A stretch of 43,192 bases of DNA from a virus, in IMG/VR virus record IMGVR_UViG_3300020202_000127, positions 1-43,192 of that record; one strand, given 5' to 3'. The position numbers and the translations under genes are program-made. The notes beneath the pieces were generated by a model that ran no database searches, had not been told where the DNA came from, and saw only the letters and a list, made by a program, of their open reading frames with translations. Shown here piece by piece: positions 2,936 to 39,457 of the stretch. The stretch's first letter is position 1. Every line of letters starts with the position of its first letter.

Positions 2936-3275
2936 GCGTATGGCCACCGACTGGAAAGCCGCACTCGAGGCGGATGATGAGAAGCGAGCGCAGAACTATG
3001 CCGAAGGGTTATCTTACTGCGATTGGCACCACACCATGGAGACCTTTACCGAAGCTTGCACCACAGATCGCGAAAGATTGCTTCGGGCGATTGAGGTGAT
3101 GGATGATATTGCTTGGGCAACAAGTCACGAAGAGGGATGTGCTCGAAGACCGTATGGTGACGATAAAAATTGTGATTGCCATATTAGCATGGCGCGAAAC
3201 TTCCTCTCCCAACTTCGCGATGAGCTGGGGGTGAGAGCAATTAACGCAAGTGGATCAAAAGGAGACAGTAAATGA
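2922..3275 (+). CDS. Hypothetical protein, Cys/His-containing
   Basis: 117 residues from ATG 2922; a second in-frame ATG at 2940 (MATDWKAALEADDEKRA) lies 4 bases after the previous stop and may be the true start. The body has CDWHH and a later cluster with Cys and His (EEGCARRPYGDDKNCDCHISM) that could bind a metal. The rest is helical. No family recognised. Its stop overlaps the next ATG (ATGA), so the genes are coupled. Confidence 0.65.
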   Translation: MDGRERMATDWKAALEADDEKRAQNYAEGLSYCDWHHTMETFTEACTTDRERLLRAIEVMDDIAWATSHEEGCARRPYGDDKNCDCHISMARNFLSQLRDELGVRAINASGSKGDSK

Positions 3276-3721
3276 GCGGAATTCTGAAATGGCCGTATCG
3301 AATATTCGCATGGGTAATTATGTCGCCATTCTTACCATTCGCCGTTCTCCTTAACGAGATTGAGAAGTTTGGCAAGTACATACAGTGGGGAAAAATAGAT
3401 TTGGAAGAAGCATATCGACTTGGCGTAAAGCGCGGAGTTGATGAGGGAACAAGGCACTTCGAATATGCTTTGAATGAATTGGCGCGACAGCTACCCGAGT
3501 ATAAACAGGAACTCGTGGACAAGTATGCCGGGAATATCACGGTTGTTGCGGAGGAACCTTGTACCTGGGATTTGGAAACTGGAAAGGTAGTGGGCCATAA
3601 GCAAACCGTGTCTTTGCCAAGCTTTGGTGTACGCATGGAAATCAAGCCGAAGAACAAATACATAAACCTTCTCAGTCGCTCTGAGATTCAGGCGACTATC
3701 AGAATGAGAAACTTGCGATAA
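3272..3721 (+). CDS. Hypothetical membrane-anchored protein (149 aa)
   Basis: 149 residues, with a strong GGAG ribosome-binding site and ATGA coupling to the previous gene. Residues about 5-27 are hydrophobic (WPYRIFAWVIMSPFLPFAVLL), suggesting a membrane anchor. The remaining domain is soluble and mixed alpha/beta with no known motif. It is the last gene of the plus-strand island and faces the minus-strand gene that ends at 3788. The 66 bases between hold no clear gene or terminator. Confidence 0.7.
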   Translation: MSGILKWPYRIFAWVIMSPFLPFAVLLNEIEKFGKYIQWGKIDLEEAYRLGVKRGVDEGTRHFEYALNELARQLPEYKQELVDKYAGNITVVAEEPCTWDLETGKVVGHKQTVSLPSFGVRMEIKPKNKYINLLSRSEIQATIRMRNLR

Positions 3722-3787
3722 CTGATGTTAACGAAACTGGATAGTTATGACCACAACGAAAACCGACGAACAGCTGATGAATCGCAG

Positions 3788-4060
3788 CTAAAACACCACC
3801 GCTTCTTCTGTCTTCGGTAGCACGCCGCACTTCTCGAGTAAGATTCTCGCTCGCTCCCCGTCTTCGATGGCATACGCACGGCCATCAGCGCCGGCAATAG
3901 TCGAGTGAGCCTCAGTGGTCGAACACGAAATATGCTCAGCGCCGGCGTAATATCTCAACGCCGTGTACGCGAGCTCGAGTCTGATCTTCAGACCAGCGTT
4001 CTCAACCTGAAGGTCTCTAATCTTGGATCGCAAGAAATCGATTTCGTCCTGTTCTTTCAT
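3788..4060 (-). CDS. Small coiled-coil phage protein
   Basis: Starts at ATG 4058-4060 behind AAAGGGG, giving 90 residues. The first half is a heptad-like helix (EIDFLRSKIRDLQVENAGLKIRL). The C-terminal part contains GRAYAIEDGERARILLEK, a pattern seen in small early phage proteins. An upstream in-frame ATG at 4090 exists but lacks a good ribosome-binding site. Function unknown. Confidence 0.65.
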   Translation of the reverse strand: MKEQDEIDFLRSKIRDLQVENAGLKIRLELAYTALRYYAGAEHISCSTTEAHSTIAGADGRAYAIEDGERARILLEKCGVLPKTEEAVVF

Positions 4061-4202
4061 GTTCAACCCCTTTCGCTTCCATCTCGTCAATCAATAGTAA
4101 AAGTCCAGTGCCGTTCATTATTGTCCTTAAATCCTCGTTAGTTGGTTCCCTTCCAAGCTTCTTCTCGAGGTAGTCTAGAATTTGTTCAACCGAGTAGTTC
4201 AT
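4017..4202 (-). CDS. Small hypothetical protein (61 aa)
   Basis: From ATG 4200-4202 it encodes 61 residues beginning MNYSVEQILDYLEKKLGREPTNEDL, an acidic-amphipathic helical start, followed by a leucine-rich segment (GTGLLLLIDEMEAKG). It overlaps the next gene by 44 bases in another frame. No family recognised. The longer start at 4247 would reach into the upstream lipoprotein gene. Confidence 0.5.
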   Translation of the reverse strand: MNYSVEQILDYLEKKLGREPTNEDLRTIMNGTGLLLLIDEMEAKGVEHERTGRNRFLAIQD

Positions 4203-20617: not shown

Positions 20618-20932
20618 GTGACTCAGCCTCTCGTTAAGAACGCCGCAGACGAATCGCAAGTGAAGGGCGCTGAACAGAAGATGAAGAGCGCCCGTGAGCG
20701 CGAGCTCGCAGATATGCGGTTCATCTTAAGCACAGCTCAAGGGCGTCGGGTGATCTGGCGCTATCTCGAGGCGTGTGGCGTGTTTCAGATTTCATTTAAC
20801 CATAGTGGCGCGATCACCTCGTTCAATGAAGGGATGAGGAATATCGGGCTCAAGCTTCTGACGGACATCAACGATGCCGCACCAGAGGCTTACGTCACAA
20901 TGCTCAAGGAAAAGGAGACTAGAAATGTCTGA
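20618..20932 (+). CDS. Bbp19-like phage protein
   Basis: 104 residues from GTG 20618. ELADMRFILSTAQGRRVIWRYLEACGVFQISF and FNEGMRNIGLKLLTDINDAAPEAYVTML match the Bbp19 family first seen in Bordetella phage BPP-1. These genes lie just before the scaffold gene; the function is not established. Confidence 0.88.
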   Translation: MTQPLVKNAADESQVKGAEQKMKSARERELADMRFILSTAQGRRVIWRYLEACGVFQISFNHSGAITSFNEGMRNIGLKLLTDINDAAPEAYVTMLKEKETRNV

Positions 20933-21569
20933 TGCAGCTCAACCGTCCGCGCAGGATACCCCGAATGCGGACCAAGGCGCTTCCGCCGAAAACTCTCAAG
21001 CGCAGCCAGCGGCTGAACAAAAGCCGGCTGGTGGAGAGTCTAAACCGGAAGCATCAGCAACACCGAAGACCGAGGCGAAGGACGCCAAGGGTGAAGCCCC
21101 AGCCGTACCCGAAAAGTACGAGCTCAAGCTCCCCGAAAACTCGCAGCTAAGTGCTGACCACGTTGAGAAGGTAGCTCTATACGCGAAAGAGCAAAAACTC
21201 TCCAACGAACAGGCTCAGGCACTTTTAGAGCGAGAGAACTTGGCGGTCAGTGAATTCGCTAATCGGCAGCAAGAAGAATTCAAAGCGCGAACCGAAGCCT
21301 GGCTCGGTGAGATCAAGGCTGACAAGGAGATTGGCGGCGAGGCGTTCAACCAGAACGTTGAGATGGCCAAGCGAGTTGTCACGCGGTACGCGACTGAAGA
21401 ATTCAGAAAGACGCTGGATGACACAGGACTAGGGAATCACCCTGAGTTGGTTCGTGTTTTCTCGCGCATTGGCAAGGCGATGTCTGAAGATCAGCTCGTC
21501 ATTCCTGGCTCGCAAGCGGGCGGGAAGAAGGCAATCGAAGATGTCTTTTACGGAAATAACAATCAATAA
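20925..21569 (+). CDS. Capsid scaffolding protein
   Basis: 214 residues from ATG 20925 with AAGGAGA upstream, overlapping the previous stop by 8 bases. The first 75 residues are disordered and rich in Ala, Pro, Glu and Lys. Then comes PEKYELKLPENSQLSADHVEKVALYAKEQKLSNEQAQALLE, the scaffold signature, and a helical C-terminus. It shapes the prohead and then leaves it. The gene precedes the capsid gene as expected. Confidence 0.88.
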   Translation: MSDAAQPSAQDTPNADQGASAENSQAQPAAEQKPAGGESKPEASATPKTEAKDAKGEAPAVPEKYELKLPENSQLSADHVEKVALYAKEQKLSNEQAQALLERENLAVSEFANRQQEEFKARTEAWLGEIKADKEIGGEAFNQNVEMAKRVVTRYATEEFRKTLDDTGLGNHPELVRVFSRIGKAMSEDQLVIPGSQAGGKKAIEDVFYGNNNQ

Positions 21570-27910: not shown

Positions 27911-28411
27911 ATGGCAGCAACAGGTGCTCTAGCAGTTGGCGCGATCTCAAGTGCGGCGACGGCGTACTCTCAAGCTCAAGCTTACGAAGCTCAAGGGTAC
28001 TACCAAAAGAAAATGTCGAAGATCAATGCAAGCTTCGCTGAGATGGAAGCTGAAGACGCGATCAAGCGCGGTGACAGAGAAGCCGGCGATGTAAGACGTC
28101 GCGGGAAGAAGATCCACGGCGCTCAGCGAGCTGCCTTGGCCGCACAGGGAATTGACATCGATAGCGGCTCTGCACTCGATATCCAAGACGAGGCGCGATC
28201 GATGACTGAACAGGATGCACTGACCGTCAGAAATAATGCTTGGCGGGAAGCCTGGGGGTATCGCGTTCAGGCCAGCAACGCAACCGCTGAGGGGCGAATG
28301 GCTCAGCTGACAGCCAGGGGGAACGCGCGGAACACGCTTTTAACTGGTGGTCTTCAGGCGACAAGTTACGGTTTACAGGCTTACAGCGCCTATCAAAAGC
28401 GGGGTAGCTGA
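27911..28411 (+). CDS. Internal virion protein (small)
   Basis: 166 residues. An Ala/Gly-rich start (GALAVGAISSAATAYSQAQAYEAQG) leads into a long helix and AQRAALAAQGIDIDSGSALDIQDEA, typical of T7 gp14-like and epsilon15 ejection proteins. It is likely released into the host envelope at infection to help form the DNA channel. Confidence 0.8.
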   Translation: MAATGALAVGAISSAATAYSQAQAYEAQGYYQKKMSKINASFAEMEAEDAIKRGDREAGDVRRRGKKIHGAQRAALAAQGIDIDSGSALDIQDEARSMTEQDALTVRNNAWREAWGYRVQASNATAEGRMAQLTARGNARNTLLTGGLQATSYGLQAYSAYQKRGS

Positions 28412-30108
28412 TGCCAACAGTCCCTCGCTATGACTCCCCCCAGGTAAGACAGACAGGGCTTCCCAATGCTCGAGTTAACACCTCCGCACCTCTTGAAGCA
28501 TTCGGTGGTGGTGACGGTCTCGAGCGGGTGAATGCGGCTGTTGGCCAGCTCGCGAACACTGGCGCTCGTATCGCGCTCGAGGAAAGAGAGAAGGCTGATG
28601 ACGTCGCAACACAAGACTATTACGCGAAACTAGCTCGAGAGAAACAGCGGCTCCAATGGGATCCAAATTCGGGCGCCATGGTGAAGCGCGGGAAAGACGC
28701 TCTTGGCGTCATGGAAGAGTACGGGACTCAGTTTGATAAGTTCGCTGACTCGCTCGAAAAAGATCTAAAGAACGAAAACCAGCGCGCCATCGCACGAAAG
28801 ATCCGCCTTCAACAAAGGATGGATCTCGACAATCATCTTGAGCGGCACACCTTCTCTGAGGCTCAGGCGCTGGCTGACGAAACAACCAAGTCAGGCCTGT
28901 TAGTCGCTCAGAATGAAGCGGTCTTAAATTACAGCGATCCACAGAAAATTAAGGAAAGCATCAACACCCAGGTTGCATTGCTTCAGAGCGCGGCTCAGAG
29001 GAAGGGGCTCCCGGCTGAATCATTTCAAGTCTTGGTTCAGGATGCGACCAGCAAGACTCACGCAGCGGTCCTCTCGAGGATGCTCGCCAATGGTGACGAT
29101 CTTGCGGCCAGTGACTATTTCAAAAACAACAAGCCACAGATGACCGGCGCTGATGCTGCCTCTCTCGAGAAGGCTCTCGCTGAGGGATCTCTCAGAGGTG
29201 AGACTCAACGCCAGGCCACTGCGATCATGGATCAGACTGGTGGAGATCTCCGCTCAGCTTTGGATGCTGCCCGAAAGATCAGTGATCCGAAGGTTCAAGA
29301 GTCTGTGGTCGGTGAGATTAAAACTCGCCACGCTGAGAATGAGCGGATCAAGAGCGAGAACGAAGAGAAGTTATTTAAGCAAGCATCTGACTACGCTGAG
29401 AAGGCGCTCAAGCGACCAGATCCGGTGACGTGGAATGGATTATCCCTACAGGCGAGAAACGCCATTGACAACCGGATAGAGCAGCTTCGCAAGGGTGTAG
29501 AGCCTGAGCCTAACAGCGAGGACTATTACCAGCTGATGCACATGGCGTCTGGCGTGAACGCCACCGAATTCAAGCGCACCAACCTGATGATGTACCGAGG
29601 GAAGGTGACAAACTCTGAGCTCGCAAGCCTCATCAAGATTCAGACCGACATGAAGAATGGCGCTGGCAGTAAGGAGCTCGATACCTTCCGCACTGATCAC
29701 ATGATCGTGACTGATGCCTTGAATGAGATGGGGATCGATCCAACGCCTTCGCCTGGCAGTAAGGATGCGAAGAAGGTGGCTGCCTTCCGTAAACAGGTTG
29801 ACGAGCAGATCCGACAGATCCAAGCGAACACGGGACGAAAGGCGACGAACGAAGAAGTTCAAGGCATCGTTGACGGTCTAATGGTCAAGGGCTCAGTCCC
29901 AGGCAGTGGGTTTTTTGGATTCTTCCAGACCGAGAAGCGAGTGTTTCAGCTCGAGGACGGCGAGAAAATTTCCGTTGCCGTCAAAGATATTCCAAAGAGC
30001 GAGCGTATGAAGATCGAAGCTGCGCTCAGGGCTAACGGTAAGCCGATTAGTGATCAGGCTGTGTTGGATCTGTGGATGCGAAAAATGAGCAGAAGAGGCG
30101 GTGGTTAG
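28411..30108 (+). CDS. Internal virion / ejection protein (565 aa)
   Basis: 565 residues, mostly helical and charged. The N-terminus (VPRYDSPQVRQTGLPNARVNTSAPLEAFGGG) is the common start of phage ejection-associated proteins. ALEEREKADDVATQDYYAKLAREKQRLQWDPNSG lies near 68-100. It overlaps both neighbours by one or two bases, forming an ejection-protein triplet with 27911 and 30108. Confidence 0.75.
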   Translation: MPTVPRYDSPQVRQTGLPNARVNTSAPLEAFGGGDGLERVNAAVGQLANTGARIALEEREKADDVATQDYYAKLAREKQRLQWDPNSGAMVKRGKDALGVMEEYGTQFDKFADSLEKDLKNENQRAIARKIRLQQRMDLDNHLERHTFSEAQALADETTKSGLLVAQNEAVLNYSDPQKIKESINTQVALLQSAAQRKGLPAESFQVLVQDATSKTHAAVLSRMLANGDDLAASDYFKNNKPQMTGADAASLEKALAEGSLRGETQRQATAIMDQTGGDLRSALDAARKISDPKVQESVVGEIKTRHAENERIKSENEEKLFKQASDYAEKALKRPDPVTWNGLSLQARNAIDNRIEQLRKGVEPEPNSEDYYQLMHMASGVNATEFKRTNLMMYRGKVTNSELASLIKIQTDMKNGAGSKELDTFRTDHMIVTDALNEMGIDPTPSPGSKDAKKVAAFRKQVDEQIRQIQANTGRKATNEEVQGIVDGLMVKGSVPGSGFFGFFQTEKRVFQLEDGEKISVAVKDIPKSERMKIEAALRANGKPISDQAVLDLWMRKMSRRGGG

Positions 30109-33100
30109 TGCTCAACGAATACGAGGACATGCTTCAAGGGGATAAGACCCCTACCGGCAACAACGAATATTTTGAACTCCTGAATGAAGGTAACGAGTCT
30201 CAAAAACAGGCGCTGAAGCAATCAATGGCGGTGGCGAGCCGTACTCAGCCTGACCGCCGTGTTGAAGTTTTGAAGCTGTCTGAAAAGATGAACCTCCCTC
30301 CCAACATCGTTGAACGTCAATTCGACGCTGTATCAAAGAAGGCGAATCAGACGACGGACTATGACGCCATCATTAAGAAGACACCTGGTCTTGCGAAGTG
30401 GCTCGAGAATCCTGATAACGCGGCAATTGGCCGCGATGATCTAGATCAGCTTGGCAAGATCGATGAAGGCTCACGGCGTTTCATTCTGAAGAAGGATGAA
30501 CCGGGGATGCTGTCGGATCTGTCTCAGTCGGGACAGACCGGATGGAATCAGCTTGGCTCGTCAGCGTTTCATTTGGCGGCTGCCTATGGCCTGATGTCTC
30601 CACAGGATGCAGCTCAGGCCGTTGCTGATCGCAACAAGCGCTCTCAAGATCTTCGCGCAAAGATGCCTGACTATGCGAAAGAGTTTAGCGCGTCCATGGA
30701 AAAGGAAGGCGGGGACATCAACAAAGCCTTCAATCAATTCACTGGATCGTTCGATTCCTTCCGTGAAGGCAAGATCCTTGAGGCTCTGAAAGACTTCGCT
30801 GTTGGCGGTGGGACCACGATCGGTGAGACGCTCGATATGATCGGCGCGGCTGCCGTTAGACCAAAGGGGCTCACGTATACCACGGTTGAGAACCTCGCCA
30901 ACTCGCTGCCGGCTCTAACTCTCGGTTTCGGGATGATGAAGGGTGGGGCTGCGATCGGTGGAGCTGTCGGCGCCGGCGCTGGTGCTGTCACTGGTCCTGG
31001 TGCGGCTGTAACCGGGACAGCTGGTGCTGTTGTCGGTGGTACAGCTGGTCTCGTCACAGGTACTTTCCTGGGCTCGAGCGCGACAGAGATCGGTGCTCAG
31101 ATTAACGATTCACTTCAAAAGCGTGGCGTGGATATTACAGACGCCAATCAGATCCTAGCGGCTTACTCAGATCCTCAGCTCATGGCTCAGGTTCGTGGTG
31201 AGGCTGAAAGAAAAGGGATCACCACCGCTGCCGTTGATGCGCTCTTTAGTGCGGTGGCCGGTCGATTTATTAAGGCCGGGAAACCAGGTGTAGTTGGAAA
31301 GACCGTCGCCGGCGCGAAAGACGTTGGCGTTCAAGCTGTCGGTGAGGCTGGCTCTGAATTCGCTGGTCAGCTCGCCAGGGAAAAGGGCGATCTCTCCAAA
31401 ATGAATATCGGTGAAGCGATCCAAGAAGGGATCATCAGCCTTGGCCATAGCGCCGGGGATTCCGTCATTGGCGCTAGCCGGCGAGCTGTGTTTGATAAAA
31501 ACCCAGCCAAGGCAGCTGAGCAGATCTCCGCTGACACCAGCAAGGCGATGGAAGCTCAGAACGCGGCTCAGTCTCTTAGTGAGATTGCTCAGGCTGTGAA
31601 AGAGTCCAAGGTCGCTAAGCGCATGCCTGAGAAGATCAGGGATCTTGTTGAGGCTGCGACAGGTGGCCAGGAAGCTTCGGCGGTTTATTTCCAAGCTGAT
31701 GATTGGGACAGCTATTGGACTCAACGAGGGAAGTCGCCAGCGAAAGCGGCTGAGCAGATCCTTGGTGACGGTGGTCAAGCGTACATGCAGGCGAAAGAGA
31801 CGGGCGCTCAGCTCGAGATTCCGCTTGCTGAATATGTTGCGAAAGTCGCACCGACTGAGGACTTTGATGGTCTTTTGCCAATGGCGAGAACCAAGGCTGA
31901 CGGGATGACTCTGGCTGAAGCGCAAGAGCACCTTCAGTCTTTGCCGGCAACAATGGAAGAGCTCGCGAAAGAAGCCTCAGCTCCACCCATGGAAGAGATT
32001 CAGCAACAGTCAGCGGCGAAAGTTTCTGACGTTGTGACTGAGCAATTGAAGTCAGCTGGCTTCGATGAGAAGACCGCTTCGACTTATTCGAAACTTTATG
32101 AACGTGCGTTCTCGACTCTTGGTCAGCGCGCTGGTGTGAATCCTCTCGAGCTGTTTGAACGATATGGACTGAAGATCAACAGCCAGGAACAGACTCAGGT
32201 TCAGCCTGGTGAGACGGCGTTGAATCAGAGCAGGAAAGGTGGCGCGGTTCAAGCTGTTGAGAGAAAAGGTTATACGATATCTCATGACGAGATCCCTTCT
32301 AATTCTGGAGATTTTGGAAAGGGTGGGGTTGTTGTTAGGGCTTATGATTCAAGTGGCAACGAGGTTGGTGATGCACTGATTTATGTTGAAGACAAAAGAA
32401 CATTATTCCCGCGCGACGTAAATGTTGACGAGAATCATCGAAGACAGGGCCTTGCATCGGCAATGTATGAATATGCCGAGAAGATAAAAAAGCGAAAACT
32501 GAGACCAAGCGGCGATCAAACCAGCGAGGCTCAGAAGCTATGGAGTCAGCCTAACCGTCCGTTCGGTAATCGGGCTCAGCCGGGTGAGAAGGCGCTGAAT
32601 CAGGGGCCTGCCAAGTCTAGCAAGTCAGCACTTAAAAAACTGTCTCAGTCTTGGCGAGATGGCAAAGTCGATGATCGGACAAGCCTTCATCAATTGGCAA
32701 TGACTCCAGAGTTCAAAGAAGGTCGCACGTCCATGCTCGAGGCTTTGGCGAACGATACTGAAACGGAAGTCATTAACGGGGTTCGCCACTTCAAATTATT
32801 CAGAGCGGTTCATCCGAATGCGAGCGAAAACTATAAAGCGAAGGCTCTTTCATTCACTACTGAAGAAGACGTTGCAGACAACTTCGCTGATGAATTCGGA
32901 GCCAACGTAAAGACCGAATGGATTCCTGAGGGCAACATAAGCTTTGCATACAATCACACTAAGCATCTTGGGTTAAAGACGCCATTCAGCCCAGAGTATG
33001 AAGTAATTGCTGGTCCGTCTGAAGATACTTTCAATCAAGGCGATTCAAGCAACCCACGCGGTCAAATCCGTTTCGGCAAAAACGGAATCAATATCGATAT

Positions 33101-36100
33101 TCTCAAGACTGCGGATCTCTCCACTTTCCTCCACGAAACGGGCCATTTCTATCTTGAAATTCTGGGCGACCTTGCCCAAGCCGAGAACGCCACACAGGAA
33201 GTCAGGGATGACTATGCGACGGTGCTGAAATGGTTAGGGGTGGAATCCCGCGACCAGATTCAGGTTCAACATCATGAGCAGTGGGCGCGCGGCTTCGAGG
33301 CGTATCTCATGGAGGGCAAGGCGCCCACCACCGCACTCAGAACGGCATTCGCTAAGTTTCGCGTCTGGCTCACATCAGTCTATCGACAGATCCGAAACCT
33401 GAATGTGGAGCTCACGCCGGAAGTTCGAAACGTCATGAACCGCATGCTCGCCACTGATGAAGAGATCAGTCAGGCTCAGGCTGAACAGGGAATGGAACCG
33501 CTCTTTGGCGATCCGAAAACCTTCGGAATGACGGGCGCCAAGGCTGAAGCCTATGTGCGAGCGACACAAGAGGCTCGCCAGGCAGCTGAGGAAGAAGTCT
33601 CTTCAAAGCTGATTGCCGACTTCAAACGTGAAAAGGAAGCTTGGTGGAAAGAGCGCCGTGAAGGTGTGCGCGCTGAGATCGCAGCTCAGGTGAATGAGTC
33701 TCGAGTTTATAAGGCGATTGCTCAGCTCAGAGACGGCACTCAACCAGACGGCTCACCGATGAAGATATCTCGAGAGTCCATCATTCAGGACTTCGGTGAT
33801 CAGTTTATCAAGCGACTCCCCCAGCGTGTGGTTGCGGCCAAAGCCAAAGGCGGCGGTCTTCATCACAACATCGTCGCTGAGATGTTTGGTTTCGAATCCG
33901 GTGACGCCATGTTGACCGAGATGGCGAATGCTCCAAAGAAGGACGATCTCATAGATAAGCTCACCGATGCTCGTATGGGCGAGCTCTATCCTGATTTGTT
34001 GGTGAATGGCGCTCTCGAGCAAGAAGCCATGAAGGCCGTTCACAACGACAAACGCGCCCAGGTCTTGCGGCTCGAGCTCGAGCACCTGGCGTCTAACGAC
34101 ATGCCGGTTCTTAAAGAGATGATCCGCCGAGTGGCTAGACGTGTTCCTTCTGAGAAGATCGTTCGCGAGCAGGCTGCGAGGATCATTGGCTCTCGTAAGG
34201 TTAAGGATATTCAGCCGCACCTATATCAACGGGCTGAAGCGAAGGCAGCAAAACAAGCCGGCGAGGCGCTGGCGAAGGGTGACTTCGATGCAGCGTTTGA
34301 AGCTAAGCAAAGAGAACTTCTGAACCATGAGCTCTATCGAGCTGCGGTTGACGTCAAAGAAGGCATAGAGGCTGCGGTTGAGAAGTTTAAGAAGTTAAAT
34401 CAGAAAGACGAAAAGCTCGCCAAATCCAGGGATATGGACTTGGTGAATGCTGCCAGGGCGATCCTGGCTCAGTTTGGTTTAGGCAAGACGGATAAGCCAG
34501 CATCGGCGTACCTAGAGCAGATCAAGCAATATGACCCCGAGGCTTATCAGACGATCGAAGCGCTAGTGCTGTCTGCAACTGAGCGAGTGAACAACTACAA
34601 AGAGATTTCATTTGACGACTTCACAGCTATGCATGACGCCGTGATGGCCTTGTGGGATCTGTCGAAGACCAGCCAACAGATGGTTATCGATGGCCGGATC
34701 ATGGACCGAGACCAGGTGAAGATGGAGCTCGAGGCAAGGCTTGATGACATCACCAAGGCTGGCAATCGCGCCGGATATGACCGGGCTCGCACGAAGTGGG
34801 ATGAAGCCAAGATGTACCTCATGGGCATCAAGGCGTCTCTTCGCAGAGTTGAGAGCTGGGTTGATGCGATGGACGGCGGCGACTATAAGGGCGCCTTCAG
34901 AAAGTACATCTTCAATCCAGTGAGCGAGGCTGTCACTCAGTACCGGGGAGCGAAGGCCAACTATCTGTCGAGATACCTCGAGATAGTAAAGGCGGTTGAG
35001 CCAGGCCTTACCAAGAAGGAGATCAAGGCGACTGAGATCGGTTACACGTTCAGCGGCAAGGCTGAGCTCTTAGGAGCGTTGCTGCATACGGGGAATGAGA
35101 GCAACCTTGCCAAGCTTCTTAAGGGGCGAGGCTGGGGTGATCAGAACCTTGATGGCAGCCTTGACCGCCGTCGTTGGGATGCGTTTATCAACCGCATGCA
35201 CGCTGAAGGTGTGCTCACCAAAGCTGACTATGATTACGCTCAAGCTGTCTGGGATCTCTTGGAAGAGATCAAACCCCAGGCGCAGCAAGCCCACAAACAG
35301 ATGTACGGCCATTATTTCGGAGAGATCTCAGCTCAAGAATTCGCGACACCATTTGGATCTTATCGCGGCGGTTACGTGCCTGCGATTGCTGATCCGTTCG
35401 TTGCTCAAGATGCAGCGATCAGGGGCGAGAAGGAGCTACTTGAGAAGTTCAACAACAGCTTCATGTTTCCAACAGCCGGGCGCGGATTCACCAAGAAACG
35501 GGTTGAGGCATACAGCGCGCCACTGTTGCTGGATCTGAAGTTTATCCCTGGTCACATTGATAAGGTTCTGCGGTTCGTTCATATCGAGCCCCAGGTGAAG
35601 AGTGTTGGCCGGCTCGTCATGGATCGATCGTTCAGGAAATCGCTGGACGCCTTTGATCCGACTGTTGGCGGGGACATGCTCGTTCCTTGGCTTCAGCGGT
35701 CAGCTCAACAGAAGGTCTCAACACCAAGCCAGGGCTGGGGTGGGAAGGCGGCTGATAGGTTCTTTGGTGAGCTCAGACGTCGAACAGGCCTTCAAGCGAT
35801 GTTCGGTAACGTAGTGAACACCCTTCAGAACGTCACCGGGTTTTCGATCGCAGCCGTGAAGGTGAAGCCTCGCCATTTAAGAAACGCACTGTGGGATTAC
35901 GTCAAGGCTCCGCGCCAGGTGGCTGAGGATGTCACTGAGAAGTCGGCCTTCATGAAGGCGCGAACCTCGAGCCAGGTGATGGAGATCCAACAATCAATTG
36001 ACGAGATGATTCTCAACCCAACGAAGTATGAGCGCGCGTTTGAATTCGCAAAGAAGCATGGTTACTTCATGCAGTCAGCGACTCAGAATGTGATCGATTT

Positions 36101-36854
36101 CACGGTATGGACTGGGGCGTATAACCAAGCGATTGAGAAGGGAGCCTCTGAGGTTGATGCAGTCAGAGAGGCTGACTCAGTTGTAAGACAAACCCAGGGC
36201 TCAATGAACGCGGAGGATATCTCGAGATTCGAAACCGGGACTCCGTTCATGCGGGCGTTCACGATGTTCTATTCCTACTTCAACATGCAAGCGAACCTTC
36301 TCGGAACCGAATTCGTAAAGGTTCAGAGAGAAACTGGACTTCGGAAGGGTGCTGGCCGACTGGTCTATGTATACGCCATGGGTTTCATGATCCCGGCTGT
36401 GTTGGCTGAGCTGATCGTGAAGTCGATGAGCGGTAAGGGGATGGACGAGGATGATGACGATCAGCACCTAGACGACTTCATGGCAACCTTCTTTGTCAGC
36501 CAGGTGCGATCAGGGACGGCGCTGTTCCCTGTGGTTGGTCCAAGTATTCAGGCCGGGATTAATGCCACAAATGACAAGTGGTATGACGACAGGATTTCAA
36601 CCTCGCCAGCCGTATCGATGATCGAAAGTGCGGTGTCAGCACCAGCCTCCGTCTACAAGGCCGTAGCTGACGACGGGAACCGCAAACGAGCGATCCGAGA
36701 CACCTTGAGCCTGGTTGGCCTTCTGACGGGGCTTCCTGTGGCGCCTGTCGCTCGTCCTCTTGGGTACCTGAGCGACGTCGCTGACGATAAGGCTGAACCA
36801 GATGGTCCGGTTGACTTTGCGCGTGGTCTAGTGACAGGGAAGGCAGGGGATTAA
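30108..36854 (+). CDS. Giant ejected virion protein with metallopeptidase, GNAT-like and ART-like modules
   Basis: About 2248 residues from GTG 30108 (TAGTG overlap; GTG 30072 is an alternative). Residues 271-325 are a glycine-zipper/membrane-like run. A GNAT-like module (about 697-822) has VDENHRRQGLASAMYEYA with RRQGLA at 778-783. An ADP-ribosyltransferase-like module (about 830-975) has R899 (LFRAVH), SFTT (915-918) and E963-Y-E965. A zincin motif HETGH is at 1009-1013. The rest is helical with a membrane-prone region near 2080-2110. It is probably ejected into the host with the DNA. Domain functions are inferred from motifs. Confidence 0.85.
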   Translation: MLNEYEDMLQGDKTPTGNNEYFELLNEGNESQKQALKQSMAVASRTQPDRRVEVLKLSEKMNLPPNIVERQFDAVSKKANQTTDYDAIIKKTPGLAKWLENPDNAAIGRDDLDQLGKIDEGSRRFILKKDEPGMLSDLSQSGQTGWNQLGSSAFHLAAAYGLMSPQDAAQAVADRNKRSQDLRAKMPDYAKEFSASMEKEGGDINKAFNQFTGSFDSFREGKILEALKDFAVGGGTTIGETLDMIGAAAVRPKGLTYTTVENLANSLPALTLGFGMMKGGAAIGGAVGAGAGAVTGPGAAVTGTAGAVVGGTAGLVTGTFLGSSATEIGAQINDSLQKRGVDITDANQILAAYSDPQLMAQVRGEAERKGITTAAVDALFSAVAGRFIKAGKPGVVGKTVAGAKDVGVQAVGEAGSEFAGQLAREKGDLSKMNIGEAIQEGIISLGHSAGDSVIGASRRAVFDKNPAKAAEQISADTSKAMEAQNAAQSLSEIAQAVKESKVAKRMPEKIRDLVEAATGGQEASAVYFQADDWDSYWTQRGKSPAKAAEQILGDGGQAYMQAKETGAQLEIPLAEYVAKVAPTEDFDGLLPMARTKADGMTLAEAQEHLQSLPATMEELAKEASAPPMEEIQQQSAAKVSDVVTEQLKSAGFDEKTASTYSKLYERAFSTLGQRAGVNPLELFERYGLKINSQEQTQVQPGETALNQSRKGGAVQAVERKGYTISHDEIPSNSGDFGKGGVVVRAYDSSGNEVGDALIYVEDKRTLFPRDVNVDENHRRQGLASAMYEYAEKIKKRKLRPSGDQTSEAQKLWSQPNRPFGNRAQPGEKALNQGPAKSSKSALKKLSQSWRDGKVDDRTSLHQLAMTPEFKEGRTSMLEALANDTETEVINGVRHFKLFRAVHPNASENYKAKALSFTTEEDVADNFADEFGANVKTEWIPEGNISFAYNHTKHLGLKTPFSPEYEVIAGPSEDTFNQGDSSNPRGQIRFGKNGINIDILKTADLSTFLHETGHFYLEILGDLAQAENATQEVRDDYATVLKWLGVESRDQIQVQHHEQWARGFEAYLMEGKAPTTALRTAFAKFRVWLTSVYRQIRNLNVELTPEVRNVMNRMLATDEEISQAQAEQGMEPLFGDPKTFGMTGAKAEAYVRATQEARQAAEEEVSSKLIADFKREKEAWWKERREGVRAEIAAQVNESRVYKAIAQLRDGTQPDGSPMKISRESIIQDFGDQFIKRLPQRVVAAKAKGGGLHHNIVAEMFGFESGDAMLTEMANAPKKDDLIDKLTDARMGELYPDLLVNGALEQEAMKAVHNDKRAQVLRLELEHLASNDMPVLKEMIRRVARRVPSEKIVREQAARIIGSRKVKDIQPHLYQRAEAKAAKQAGEALAKGDFDAAFEAKQRELLNHELYRAAVDVKEGIEAAVEKFKKLNQKDEKLAKSRDMDLVNAARAILAQFGLGKTDKPASAYLEQIKQYDPEAYQTIEALVLSATERVNNYKEISFDDFTAMHDAVMALWDLSKTSQQMVIDGRIMDRDQVKMELEARLDDITKAGNRAGYDRARTKWDEAKMYLMGIKASLRRVESWVDAMDGGDYKGAFRKYIFNPVSEAVTQYRGAKANYLSRYLEIVKAVEPGLTKKEIKATEIGYTFSGKAELLGALLHTGNESNLAKLLKGRGWGDQNLDGSLDRRRWDAFINRMHAEGVLTKADYDYAQAVWDLLEEIKPQAQQAHKQMYGHYFGEISAQEFATPFGSYRGGYVPAIADPFVAQDAAIRGEKELLEKFNNSFMFPTAGRGFTKKRVEAYSAPLLLDLKFIPGHIDKVLRFVHIEPQVKSVGRLVMDRSFRKSLDAFDPTVGGDMLVPWLQRSAQQKVSTPSQGWGGKAADRFFGELRRRTGLQAMFGNVVNTLQNVTGFSIAAVKVKPRHLRNALWDYVKAPRQVAEDVTEKSAFMKARTSSQVMEIQQSIDEMILNPTKYERAFEFAKKHGYFMQSATQNVIDFTVWTGAYNQAIEKGASEVDAVREADSVVRQTQGSMNAEDISRFETGTPFMRAFTMFYSYFNMQANLLGTEFVKVQRETGLRKGAGRLVYVYAMGFMIPAVLAELIVKSMSGKGMDEDDDDQHLDDFMATFFVSQVRSGTALFPVVGPSIQAGINATNDKWYDDRISTSPAVSMIESAVSAPASVYKAVADDGNRKRAIRDTLSLVGLLTGLPVAPVARPLGYLSDVADDKAEPDGPVDFARGLVTGKAGD
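32200..32603 (+). repeat. Direct repeat bounding the GNAT-like cassette
   Basis: 32200-32228 and 32575-32603 are 29-bp direct repeats with 25 of 29 bases equal, each coding PGEtALNQ or PGEkALNQ. They are 375 bases (125 codons) apart. A weaker third copy of the protein motif (SEDTFNQG) occurs near 33020. The enclosed DNA looks more AT-rich than its flanks. Confidence 0.7.
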
Positions 36855-36913: not shown

Positions 36914-39457
36914 ATGACGATTTCATCAACCACAAACCGAGTCAGCTACACCGGCAACGGTGCAGTTGATACCTATGCGTACACCTTCCGAATCTTCACC
37001 AAAAACGATCTTCGCGTCACTGTTCGTGACACTGACGATGTTGAGACAACCTTAACGGTTGACACGCATTACACCGTCACAGGCGCGGGCGACGAAGGCG
37101 GCGGAAACGTCGCGCTCGTAAATGGCGCTTTTGCCTGGTTAGACGCTGATGGCGATCTGAAGAGTAACTATGTTCTGACGATCCGGCGCGTGCGAGCTCT
37201 GAAACAAGAGACTGACATTCGAAATCAGGGTGAGTTTTACCCTGAGAATCACGAAGACGCTTTTGATCATTTCGTGATGGTGGACCAGCAACAGCAAGAT
37301 TCTATTGACCGGGCGGTGAAGCTCCCTGAAACGGTGACGTCTTCCGCGTTTGATCCGACACTCCCCTCTGATATCGCCGGCGTTGCTGACAGCGTTCCAG
37401 TGACAAATGCCAGTGGGGACGGTTGGGCTGATGCTGCTGATTGGATCACGGCTGACGAAGTGTCGAATGCTCAAACGTATGCGAACAACGCTTCAACAAG
37501 CGCGACACTCGCTAGCGAGTGGGCGACGAAGACTAACGGTCTTGTTGCTGCAACAGATAACTCAGCCAAGGCTTACGCGATCGGCGGCACTGGCGCTGGT
37601 CAGCCGTCCGGTGGTGATGCAAAGAGCTGGGCAACAAACACCAGCTCAACCGTTGCTGGCGGTGAATATTCCGCGAAGGAATATGCGGTTGGAACACAGA
37701 CGCGCGGAGCAGCTGGCAAGGGCTCAGCGAAGGATTGGGCAACCAGAACAGGCGCCACCGTCGATGACGCTGAATACTCTGCGAAGGAATACGCTCAAGG
37801 AACGACGGCTGCGGTTGGTGGATCTGCGAAGGACTGGGCACAAAAGACGAGCGCAGCCGTTACGGGCTCGAGCTATTCCGCGAAGGAGTGGGCTCAGGGG
37901 ACTCAAACCCGTGGAGCTGCAAGCGGTGGATCTGCTAAGGACTGGGCGACTTATGCAGGTGGTTCAGTTGATAACTCTGATTATTCCGCTAAGGCTTGGG
38001 CAGTCGGTGGCACTGGCGTAACAGACACCGCAAGTAGAGGCGCCGCAAAAGAATGGGCGATTGAAACCGCGAGCACAGTTGACGGCTCGGACTATTCCGC
38101 GAAGGAATGGGCGAAAGGTACTCAGACTCGCGGCCAGGCTAACGGTGGTTCGGCAAAGGACTGGGCCAACTACACTGGCGGAACCGTAGACAACACGGAA
38201 TATTCTGCGAAAAAGTATGCGACCGATGCTGCGGCTTCAGCTGCGGCTGCGGCGGCAACACTCGCTTCAGCCTTATGGCGCGGGATGCGTCGCAAGACAT
38301 CGGCTGATTCCCCTTATACCGTCACGTCAGCTGATAACGGTTACTTGATCGTGTGTGACACCACGTCTGGCGCGATCACGATCAACCTCCCTCAGATCTC
38401 TGGGCTTACGCTGCCGTTCACCGTGGGTATTCAGTTTGATGCTGGAACTACGAATGCAGTCACTATCGCTCGAGGTGGGACAGACACGATTGACGGAGCA
38501 ACCACCAAACTTCTCAGTGCGGTTGGCTCTGGCGTGCAGCTCTTAGCTGATAGCTCGCCAAATCCTGATGAGTGGGAAGCTGTCGATTTCGGAGCTCAGT
38601 CCGGAAACCTCACAATTGATCGATTCAGCGGCGATGGAGCAGACACCACGTTTGATCTGTCGGTTGATCCTGGCACAGAAAACAACACCTGGGTTTATAT
38701 CTCAGGTGTGTACCAACAGAAAGACACCTATTCCCTCAGTGGTCAGACGATCACATTCTCTGCCGCGCCGCCGGTAGGGACGAACAACATTGAGGTGATA
38801 TCGGGAACGACGTTGGCGGTGGGAACACCATCAGACAACACGGTGTCCACAGCGAAACTGCAAGACGATGCTGTGACGTTCGCGAAGATGCAGAACATCT
38901 CTACTTCTCGTCTCTTAGGGCGAACGACAGCATCAAGTGGTGACATTGAAGAGTTGACAGTTGGTAGTGGTCTAAGTCTGGCTGCCGGCTCTCTTTCGGT
39001 TGCCGCTGGCGGAGTCGTCCAAATGGTCAGGACACAAACAGGTGCTGTTGCCACAGGGACGACAATCATTCCCTATGACGACACGATCCCTCAGAACACT
39101 GAGGGCGATCAGTATATGTCTCTGTCGATTACTCCAACCAGCGCGACGAATGAGCTTCTCATTGAAGTCGTTGCGATGCTGTCTAACAGTGCCGGTGATT
39201 TTGTGACTGGCGCTCTATTCCAAGACTCAACGGCTAACGCTCTCGCGGCATTCGTGGACTTTCACAGCGGTGGGCAAGAGGTTGCTGCAATCGTTTTTAG
39301 TCACAAGATGACTGCGGGAACCACGAGTGCGACAACGTTTAAGTTTCGCGCTGGTCCTAGTTCGGCTGCCACTCTCACATTCAATGGACGTGCAGGCGCG
39401 AGACGGCTTGGTGGTGTTATGGCGTCTTCAATCACGATTCGCGAAATCAAAGTTTAA
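36914..39457 (+). CDS. Tail fibre, T7 gp17-type N-terminus with tandem repeats
   Basis: 847 residues. The first about 150 residues (RVSYTGNGAVDTYAYTFRIFTKNDLRV ... YPENHEDAFDHFVMVDQQQQDSIDRAVKLP) are the T7-type fibre anchor. Residues about 230-440 are repeats of GSAKDWA-x2-TG-x-TVD-x2-EYSAKEYA-x-GTQTRG. A beta-rich part with LTIDRFSGDGADTTFDL follows, and the last about 140 residues form a C-terminal beta-domain. It binds the host surface. No diversity-generating cassette is attached. Confidence 0.9.
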   Translation: MTISSTTNRVSYTGNGAVDTYAYTFRIFTKNDLRVTVRDTDDVETTLTVDTHYTVTGAGDEGGGNVALVNGAFAWLDADGDLKSNYVLTIRRVRALKQETDIRNQGEFYPENHEDAFDHFVMVDQQQQDSIDRAVKLPETVTSSAFDPTLPSDIAGVADSVPVTNASGDGWADAADWITADEVSNAQTYANNASTSATLASEWATKTNGLVAATDNSAKAYAIGGTGAGQPSGGDAKSWATNTSSTVAGGEYSAKEYAVGTQTRGAAGKGSAKDWATRTGATVDDAEYSAKEYAQGTTAAVGGSAKDWAQKTSAAVTGSSYSAKEWAQGTQTRGAASGGSAKDWATYAGGSVDNSDYSAKAWAVGGTGVTDTASRGAAKEWAIETASTVDGSDYSAKEWAKGTQTRGQANGGSAKDWANYTGGTVDNTEYSAKKYATDAAASAAAAAATLASALWRGMRRKTSADSPYTVTSADNGYLIVCDTTSGAITINLPQISGLTLPFTVGIQFDAGTTNAVTIARGGTDTIDGATTKLLSAVGSGVQLLADSSPNPDEWEAVDFGAQSGNLTIDRFSGDGADTTFDLSVDPGTENNTWVYISGVYQQKDTYSLSGQTITFSAAPPVGTNNIEVISGTTLAVGTPSDNTVSTAKLQDDAVTFAKMQNISTSRLLGRTTASSGDIEELTVGSGLSLAAGSLSVAAGGVVQMVRTQTGAVATGTTIIPYDDTIPQNTEGDQYMSLSITPTSATNELLIEVVAMLSNSAGDFVTGALFQDSTANALAAFVDFHSGGQEVAAIVFSHKMTAGTTSATTFKFRAGPSSAATLTFNGRAGARRLGGVMASSITIREIKV
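37600..38235 (+). repeat. Tandem repeats inside the tail fibre gene
   Basis: About six to seven copies of a unit of about 90-110 bases. Recurring blocks such as GCGAAGGACTGGGC and TATTCCGCGAAGGA encode AKDWA and YSAKE. Some copies lack the GTQTRG part, so unit loss or gain may change fibre length. Confidence 0.8.

Follow-up and report, generated by a model that had tools for sequence, protein, structure and literature searches.

A probable effector-cassette port with short recurring seams in a polyvalent-type phage protein

The giant protein gene and its two modules

The window analysed here is the whole of a 43,192-base IMG/VR virus record, whose gene order is that of a podovirus related to Bordetella phage BPP-1 and which carries an integrase gene. 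Genes for terminase, head-tail adaptor, major head protein and tail lie upstream of a gene for a giant protein, which is in frame and intact throughout; residues of this protein are counted from the GTG at 30072. The features considered are the following:

20874..21569, + strand: separate protease gene (phrog_458), directly before the major head protein gene
28411-30108: lysozyme-like gene, upstream neighbour of the giant protein gene
30072..36854, + strand: giant polyvalent-type protein, 2260 aa (phrog_9880), with LPD22 at aa 48-132
31860..32180, + strand: conserved N-flank of the port, ending LELFERYGLKI (aa 692-702), from an iterated profile
32202..32230, + strand: 29-bp direct repeat, first copy
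32205..32228, + strand: seam 1, PGETALNQ (aa 712-719), from motif statistics
32229..32579, + strand: module 1, GNAT acetyltransferase fragment (aa 720-836) with RRQGLA from aa 790, from Pfam and PHROG
32577..32605, + strand: 29-bp direct repeat, second copy, 25/29 identical to the first
32580..32603, + strand: seam 2, PGEKALNQ (aa 837-844)
32604..33029, + strand: module 2, orphan (aa 845-986) with R911, SFTT (927) and EYE (975-977), ART-like by motif only
33030..33038, + strand: seam 3, FNQ (aa 987-989), then G; Q nearly invariant in aligned relatives
33057..33581, + strand: zincin-like HExxH domain, from RGQIRFG (aa 996) onwards
33132-33146, + strand: HETGH, from aa 1021, within the zincin-like domain
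36914-39457: tail-fibre-type gene, downstream neighbour of the giant protein gene

The match to PHROG 9880 spans nearly the whole length of the giant protein. The protein is a member of the known polyvalent protein class, as it joins disparate domains (LPD22, GNAT and HExxH) in one large mobile-element protein and is encoded together with virion structural genes. Judging from the gene order and from the literature on polyvalent proteins, it is presumably a head-packaged protein that is delivered into the host along with the DNA. In other records (L004, L014, L015 and others) annotations of the giant protein frequently read 'crystallin beta/gamma motif-containing' or 'lysis protein', names for which the searches made on the giant protein gave no support. 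Limnohabitans phage DC33 (L006, PQ492659.1) encodes a giant protein of this podovirus type, yet its record is filed under Inoviridae.

A sequence-only reading of the window had placed PGExALNQ before each of two modules and a related FNQG after them, and had described the first two copies as 29-bp DNA repeats with 25/29 identity. All of this was recovered, in the order N-flank, PGETALNQ, 117-aa module, PGEKALNQ, 142-aa module, FNQG and HExxH domain. With the short motifs referred to as seams and the slot between the N-flank and the HExxH domain as the port, the port of the window comprises three seams and two modules. The 29-bp copies, which lack a 9-base exact seed and were detected by direct comparison, are the only such pair in the giant gene, and no pair appeared in 40 codon shuffles. 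The codon is identical at six of the eight shared residues (P = 0.045 given the codon usage of the gene), and since the identity barely exceeds this codon expectation, the real signal lies at the protein level and not in a DNA element; most of the DNA identity of the repeats follows from the protein motif they have in common.

The stretch covering both modules (32229-33029) has 47.3% GC, against a mean of 54.2% (s.d. 1.35) for the other 801-bp segments of the gene, none of which (0/1460) falls below 51.8%. Its third-position GC is 44%, compared with 54-61% elsewhere in the gene. As judged by these low values, both modules look compositionally foreign and recently acquired. Elsewhere in the genome, GC this low (about 46.6-47.6%) occurs in one stretch only, 2950-4150.

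Module 1 had been read as GNAT-like and the profiles agree, with PF00583 at 21.7 bits (cutoff 20.7) and PF13508 just below its cutoff; the GNAT acetyl-CoA loop Q/RxxGxG/A is seen as RRQGLA. At 117 aa the module is shorter than the usual GNAT. Relatives of module 1 occupy the first slot of the L045 port, between YNQ and LFQ, and the C-terminal parts of gp203 and gp205 in the jumbo phage Tunturi_5, which has a distant host, while scans of IMG/VR using module 1 alone or module 2 alone gave no matches. The gp203 protein of this Tunturiibacter phage (L003) is annotated as NUDIX; Pfam gives GNAT models and no NUDIX for it.

Module 2 had been called ADP-ribosyltransferase (ART)-like. The motifs of the R-S-E pattern are indeed present, in order, by hand reading (LFRA with R911, SFTT and EYE), although motifs this short can be chance. 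The earlier nucleotide positions were right, but the ART residue numbers (R899 and EYE 963-965) were 12 too low. Profiles did not add to the motifs: no Pfam, NCBIfam, PHROG or PADLOC family was matched at a meaningful E-value, and ART-PolyVal (PF18760) was not matched at E up to 0.5. There was also no PDB sequence match and no believable relative in sequence searches, and a single-sequence AlphaFold model reached a pLDDT of 39. Two matches were rejected, one to the crAss-like phage cr50_1, a chance-looking helical stretch without the catalytic motifs, and a lone genome match (E 0.0087) that covers about 60 aa and is not ART-like. From LFRA, SFTT and EYE, module 2 is possibly an ART. We give even chances to its being another small domain, to which the empty family, structure and relative searches and the low pLDDT point, whereas the order of the three motifs and their context fit the R-S-E pattern, and other ARTs are the commonest recognised cargo of the port (see below).

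The port and its seams among relatives

Searches located the giant protein in 44 phage records, and a profile of the post-seam region fetched 80 IMG/VR loci and 80 prokaryote-genome loci; the set comprised 169 proteins. An iterated profile detected the conserved N-flank in 145 of these 169 relatives, and the distance from it to the HExxH domain ranged from 33 to 2366 aa. Within the 33 aa before the HExxH domain, [LFYM]xQ was present in 123 of 139 non-redundant relatives, compared with a mean of 40.5 and a maximum of 59 in 1000 shuffles and with 24% of random downstream windows. The figure of 123 is conservative, since some of the 16 exceptions are junctions misplaced by the script (LFQGDKQG in L025). 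The seam at this position most often reads LFQ, LNQ or FFQ and is followed by G in 33%; proline comes directly after the Q in about 10% of seams. When 68 relatives were aligned with MAFFT, the Q of the seam had a conservation of 90% or more, and the hydrophobic position two residues ahead of it is likewise retained amid variable surroundings. A strict form of the motif, [LFY][NFYD]Q plus a small or polar residue, occurred 199 times in the ports against 43.8 expected, and 51 times in the C-terminal rest of the proteins against 71 expected.

Both an empty site and different cassettes at the same point, which the sequence-only reading had proposed to look for in homologues, were encountered. Ports of 33-44 aa mostly have exactly one motif, about 10 to 16 aa past the N-flank, and the shortest, empty ports with a single seam include L133, L139, L154, L155, L166, L016, L118 and L178; L170, also among the shortest, has no motif. 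Single-module ports mostly have one motif per end, about 10 aa past the N-flank and before the HExxH domain, as seen in BPP-1 (FDQ, PBECR1, FYQ), Caulobacter phage Jess A (LTQ, ART-PolyVal, LAQ), L136 (LDQ, GNAT by Pfam, LEQ) and L152 (LDQ, a module GNAT-like by eye, LYQ). Among 90 ports without an extra conserved domain, 61 have the N-proximal motif, compared with 19% of same-size mid-port windows, and its lack in the remaining 29 counts against the cassette-port reading. Some ports have further [LFYM]xQ matches inside modules. The cargo recognised by Pfam in 80 ports consisted of ART-PolyVal (12), GNAT (9), LPD3 (8), PBECR3 (6), PBECR5 (5), MuF_C (5), PBECR1 (3) and GGDEF (2).

Between close relatives, inserts are cleanly present or absent at the motif, in line with the cassette port that had been proposed. 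The giant genes of Xanthomonas phages CP2 and SAC are 97-98% identical apart from 411 bp (137 aa) extra in CP2, a weakly GNAT-like insert (PF13508, E 0.008) flanked by AAQGG and LNQGG where SAC has ALNQGG. At its natural empty site SAC reads AALNQGGDNPRG, which is very similar to the continuous, module-free sequence that had been judged plausible for the window. Stenotrophomonas prophages and viral contigs carry module A (L110, L065), modules A and B (L066, L073) or module B (L107) between flanks that are 86-92% identical, with breaks at LFQ and FFQ. A systematic search for conserved flanks with different port lengths yielded the pairs L043/L048 (+171 aa, an ART-PolyVal cassette), L148/L149 (+163 aa, with breaks inside AYN-QGP and LH-QGP) and L007/L039 (+184 aa, LPD3). 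In six clean gain or loss events, 11 of the 12 boundaries were located at the motif by reading, the exception being the left side of L107. Interior homology breaks between ports of at least 55% identity lie within 14 aa of a strict motif more often than at random (starts 37% versus 8%, ends 21% versus 10%); the fixed flanks were excluded from this analysis because many breaks are the fixed zincin seam and as such partly trivial.

Taken as a whole, we regard an effector-cassette port in a polyvalent-type phage protein as highly probable. A cassette consists of an enzyme module and one seam motif, [LFY]xQ(G), and the comparison of relatives shows cassettes being gained, lost and exchanged by in-frame recombination with boundaries at the seams, so that a port with n modules has n+1 seams from the N-flank to the HExxH domain. 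The window holds two cassettes, one with the GNAT module and one with the orphan, possibly ART-like, module.

Two other explanations of these data have to be weighed against exchange at protein-level seams. One takes the modules to be ancestral to the protein, with divergence or loss in some relatives and no exchange at all; this would suit the intact, in-frame gene of the window. We rejected this as extremely unlikely, as it is contradicted by the foreign base composition of the modules, by different enzyme families in the same slot, by a related GNAT module in the jumbo phage of a distant host, and by the allelic series A, A+B and B. The other is that the motif acts only as a DNA recombination site or microhomology and has no role in the protein; the 25/29 identity of the window copies and the breaks falling on the motif would fit such a site. 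However, the residues persist in very divergent phages under many forms (LFQ, LNQ, FYQ), which need not share DNA, the codon statistics leave little of the repeat identity to be explained, and the seam is kept in empty ports. On the codon statistics and the seams of empty ports, DNA-level microhomology was rejected as the sole cause, and we consider it improbable.

Possible roles of the seams

The domain behind the last seam has the marks of a zincin-like peptidase. In the numbering of A3 the residues H53, E54 and H57 are invariant, as are H100, E101 and E108 downstream, and in the structural model HExxH is located on helix 48-68 and is followed by the conserved downstream acid. HExxH is kept in all relatives, but the search itself selected for it. 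The best VIA-align matches of the model were zincin peptidases, with lethal factor at Z 5.2 (103 aligned, rmsd 4.6) and PPEP-2 at Z 3.9, scores that are below the level excluding chance; Foldseek found nothing at E up to 0.001. In the model, the last seam corresponds to a beta-strand of the domain (residues 18-23).

The ends of the ART-PolyVal domain in different carriers are informative about the seam. In the protein family of the window, all 10 recognised cases end in NIL or similar followed by xQ, whereas in the F116-like giant proteins of phages F116, USP_18 and Dfl-JY45 (L184, L186, L187) the domain ends in IL, IR or IT followed by FSR. The giant proteins of F116 and USP_18 have HExxH sequences of another kind, and no HExxH sequence was seen in the part of the Dfl-JY45 protein that was read. 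In a solo gene of Dickeya phage JA11, ART-PolyVal ends nearly at the C-terminus of the protein. FSR, as (L/I/R/T)FSR flanking or ending ART-PolyVal, is a possible second junction tag. As the same domain has different end tags in different carriers, the seam is a property of the carrier rather than of the enzyme fold. Three points favour a carrier signal that acts at the protein level: the position of the seam between unrelated modules, the persistence of its Q and of the hydrophobic residue two positions earlier, and the variation of the tag by carrier.

For a tag of this kind, recognition by a protease would be the simplest function, and it accords with the processing by the embedded zincin-like domain that Iyer et al. 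proposed (PMC5512222). It is tentatively proposed, with a likelihood that we put just short of even, that each enzyme is released in the host through cutting at the seams, by the fused zincin-like domain or by some other phage protease. The phrog_458 protease (20874-21569) is an alternative candidate for processing of the giant protein. In the relative BPP-1 the capsid proteins are reported to be uncleaved (PMC3863775), which lends no support to a capsid-maturation protease there. Proline after the Q would be unfavourable for a cut right after this residue, and the strand formed by the last seam may mean that it is structural near the zincin. A zincin preferring a hydrophobic residue after the cut could also cleave before the first residue of the motif, and the bond is accordingly not predicted.

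A fairly strong competitor, although somewhat doubtful in our judgement, is that the port is real and the seam stays uncut, serving as a structural or spacing element (a short beta-strand or linker by which a module can be added with the adjacent fold left intact, or an aid to unfolding and passage through the portal). The strand in the zincin model and the prolines after Q speak for it, as does the N4 virion RNA polymerase, which also has such an HExxH-type domain and is packaged unprocessed (PMC5512222). On the other hand, the same tripeptide occurs between unrelated modules far from the zincin, a spacer has no need of an almost invariant Q, and another carrier family has FSR instead. Cutting at the seams might, more speculatively, follow an address code, in which a carrier-specific tag (LxQ here, FSR in the F116-like proteins) is read by the carrier's own protease. 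If this is true, cassettes would need the tag of their carrier for release after injection, and the tag would set the partners between which effectors can be traded.

Relation to known systems

Much of the setting is already published: the protein class, its mosaicism, GNAT and ART cargo, and the idea of self-processing (PMC5512222). Iyer et al. 2017 described GNAT adjoining ART in polyvalent proteins and proposed that an embedded zincin-like metallopeptidase processes them (PMC5512222). The window protein resembles polyvalent proteins in being very large, in combining LPD22, GNAT and an HExxH metallopeptidase, and in being encoded with virion genes. It would differ from them if module 2 were an R-S-E ART of the Alt/VIP2 clade, as these are stated to be absent from genuine polyvalent proteins (PMC5512222). 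A text search of PMC5512222 turned up nothing on a recurring motif between domains, on a defined port or on cassette-exchange boundaries, and neither the seam motif nor a port between fixed flanks was described in the titles and abstracts searched, a scope outside which most subscription papers fell.

Polyvalent proteins are known mosaics, and the seam and the port bear on the joining, exchange and release of their parts. A slot that is fixed in place and carries a three-residue tag at its junctions provides a rule for splitting giant proteins into modules, and this rule could list injected anti-host enzymes that are missed by profile searches, such as module 2. The tag-marked slot suggests that ready-made weapons pass between phages at the marked seams, and the seams allow a direct test of enzyme release by the embedded metallopeptidase.

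Close counterparts are BPP-1 Bbp10 and its relatives, which are homologous giant proteins with the same flanks, HExxH domain and seams (FDQ, FYQ); the port of BPP-1 holds a PBECR1 nuclease domain instead of the GNAT and orphan modules. Viral polyproteins carry several enzymes per chain together with short, Q-containing junction motifs and their own peptidase, which cuts them. The window protein likewise has several enzymes, a Q-containing junction motif and a peptidase in the same chain, but its cutting is a prediction, its peptidase is of the zincin-like HExxH kind, and the number and kind of its modules vary. Polymorphic toxins are described as combining a conserved delivery part with exchangeable C-terminal enzyme domains (PMC3482391). 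The port protein is similar in having a conserved delivery part and swapped enzyme domains, whereas exchange in the port is internal, its modules can be stacked, and both sides of it are conserved.
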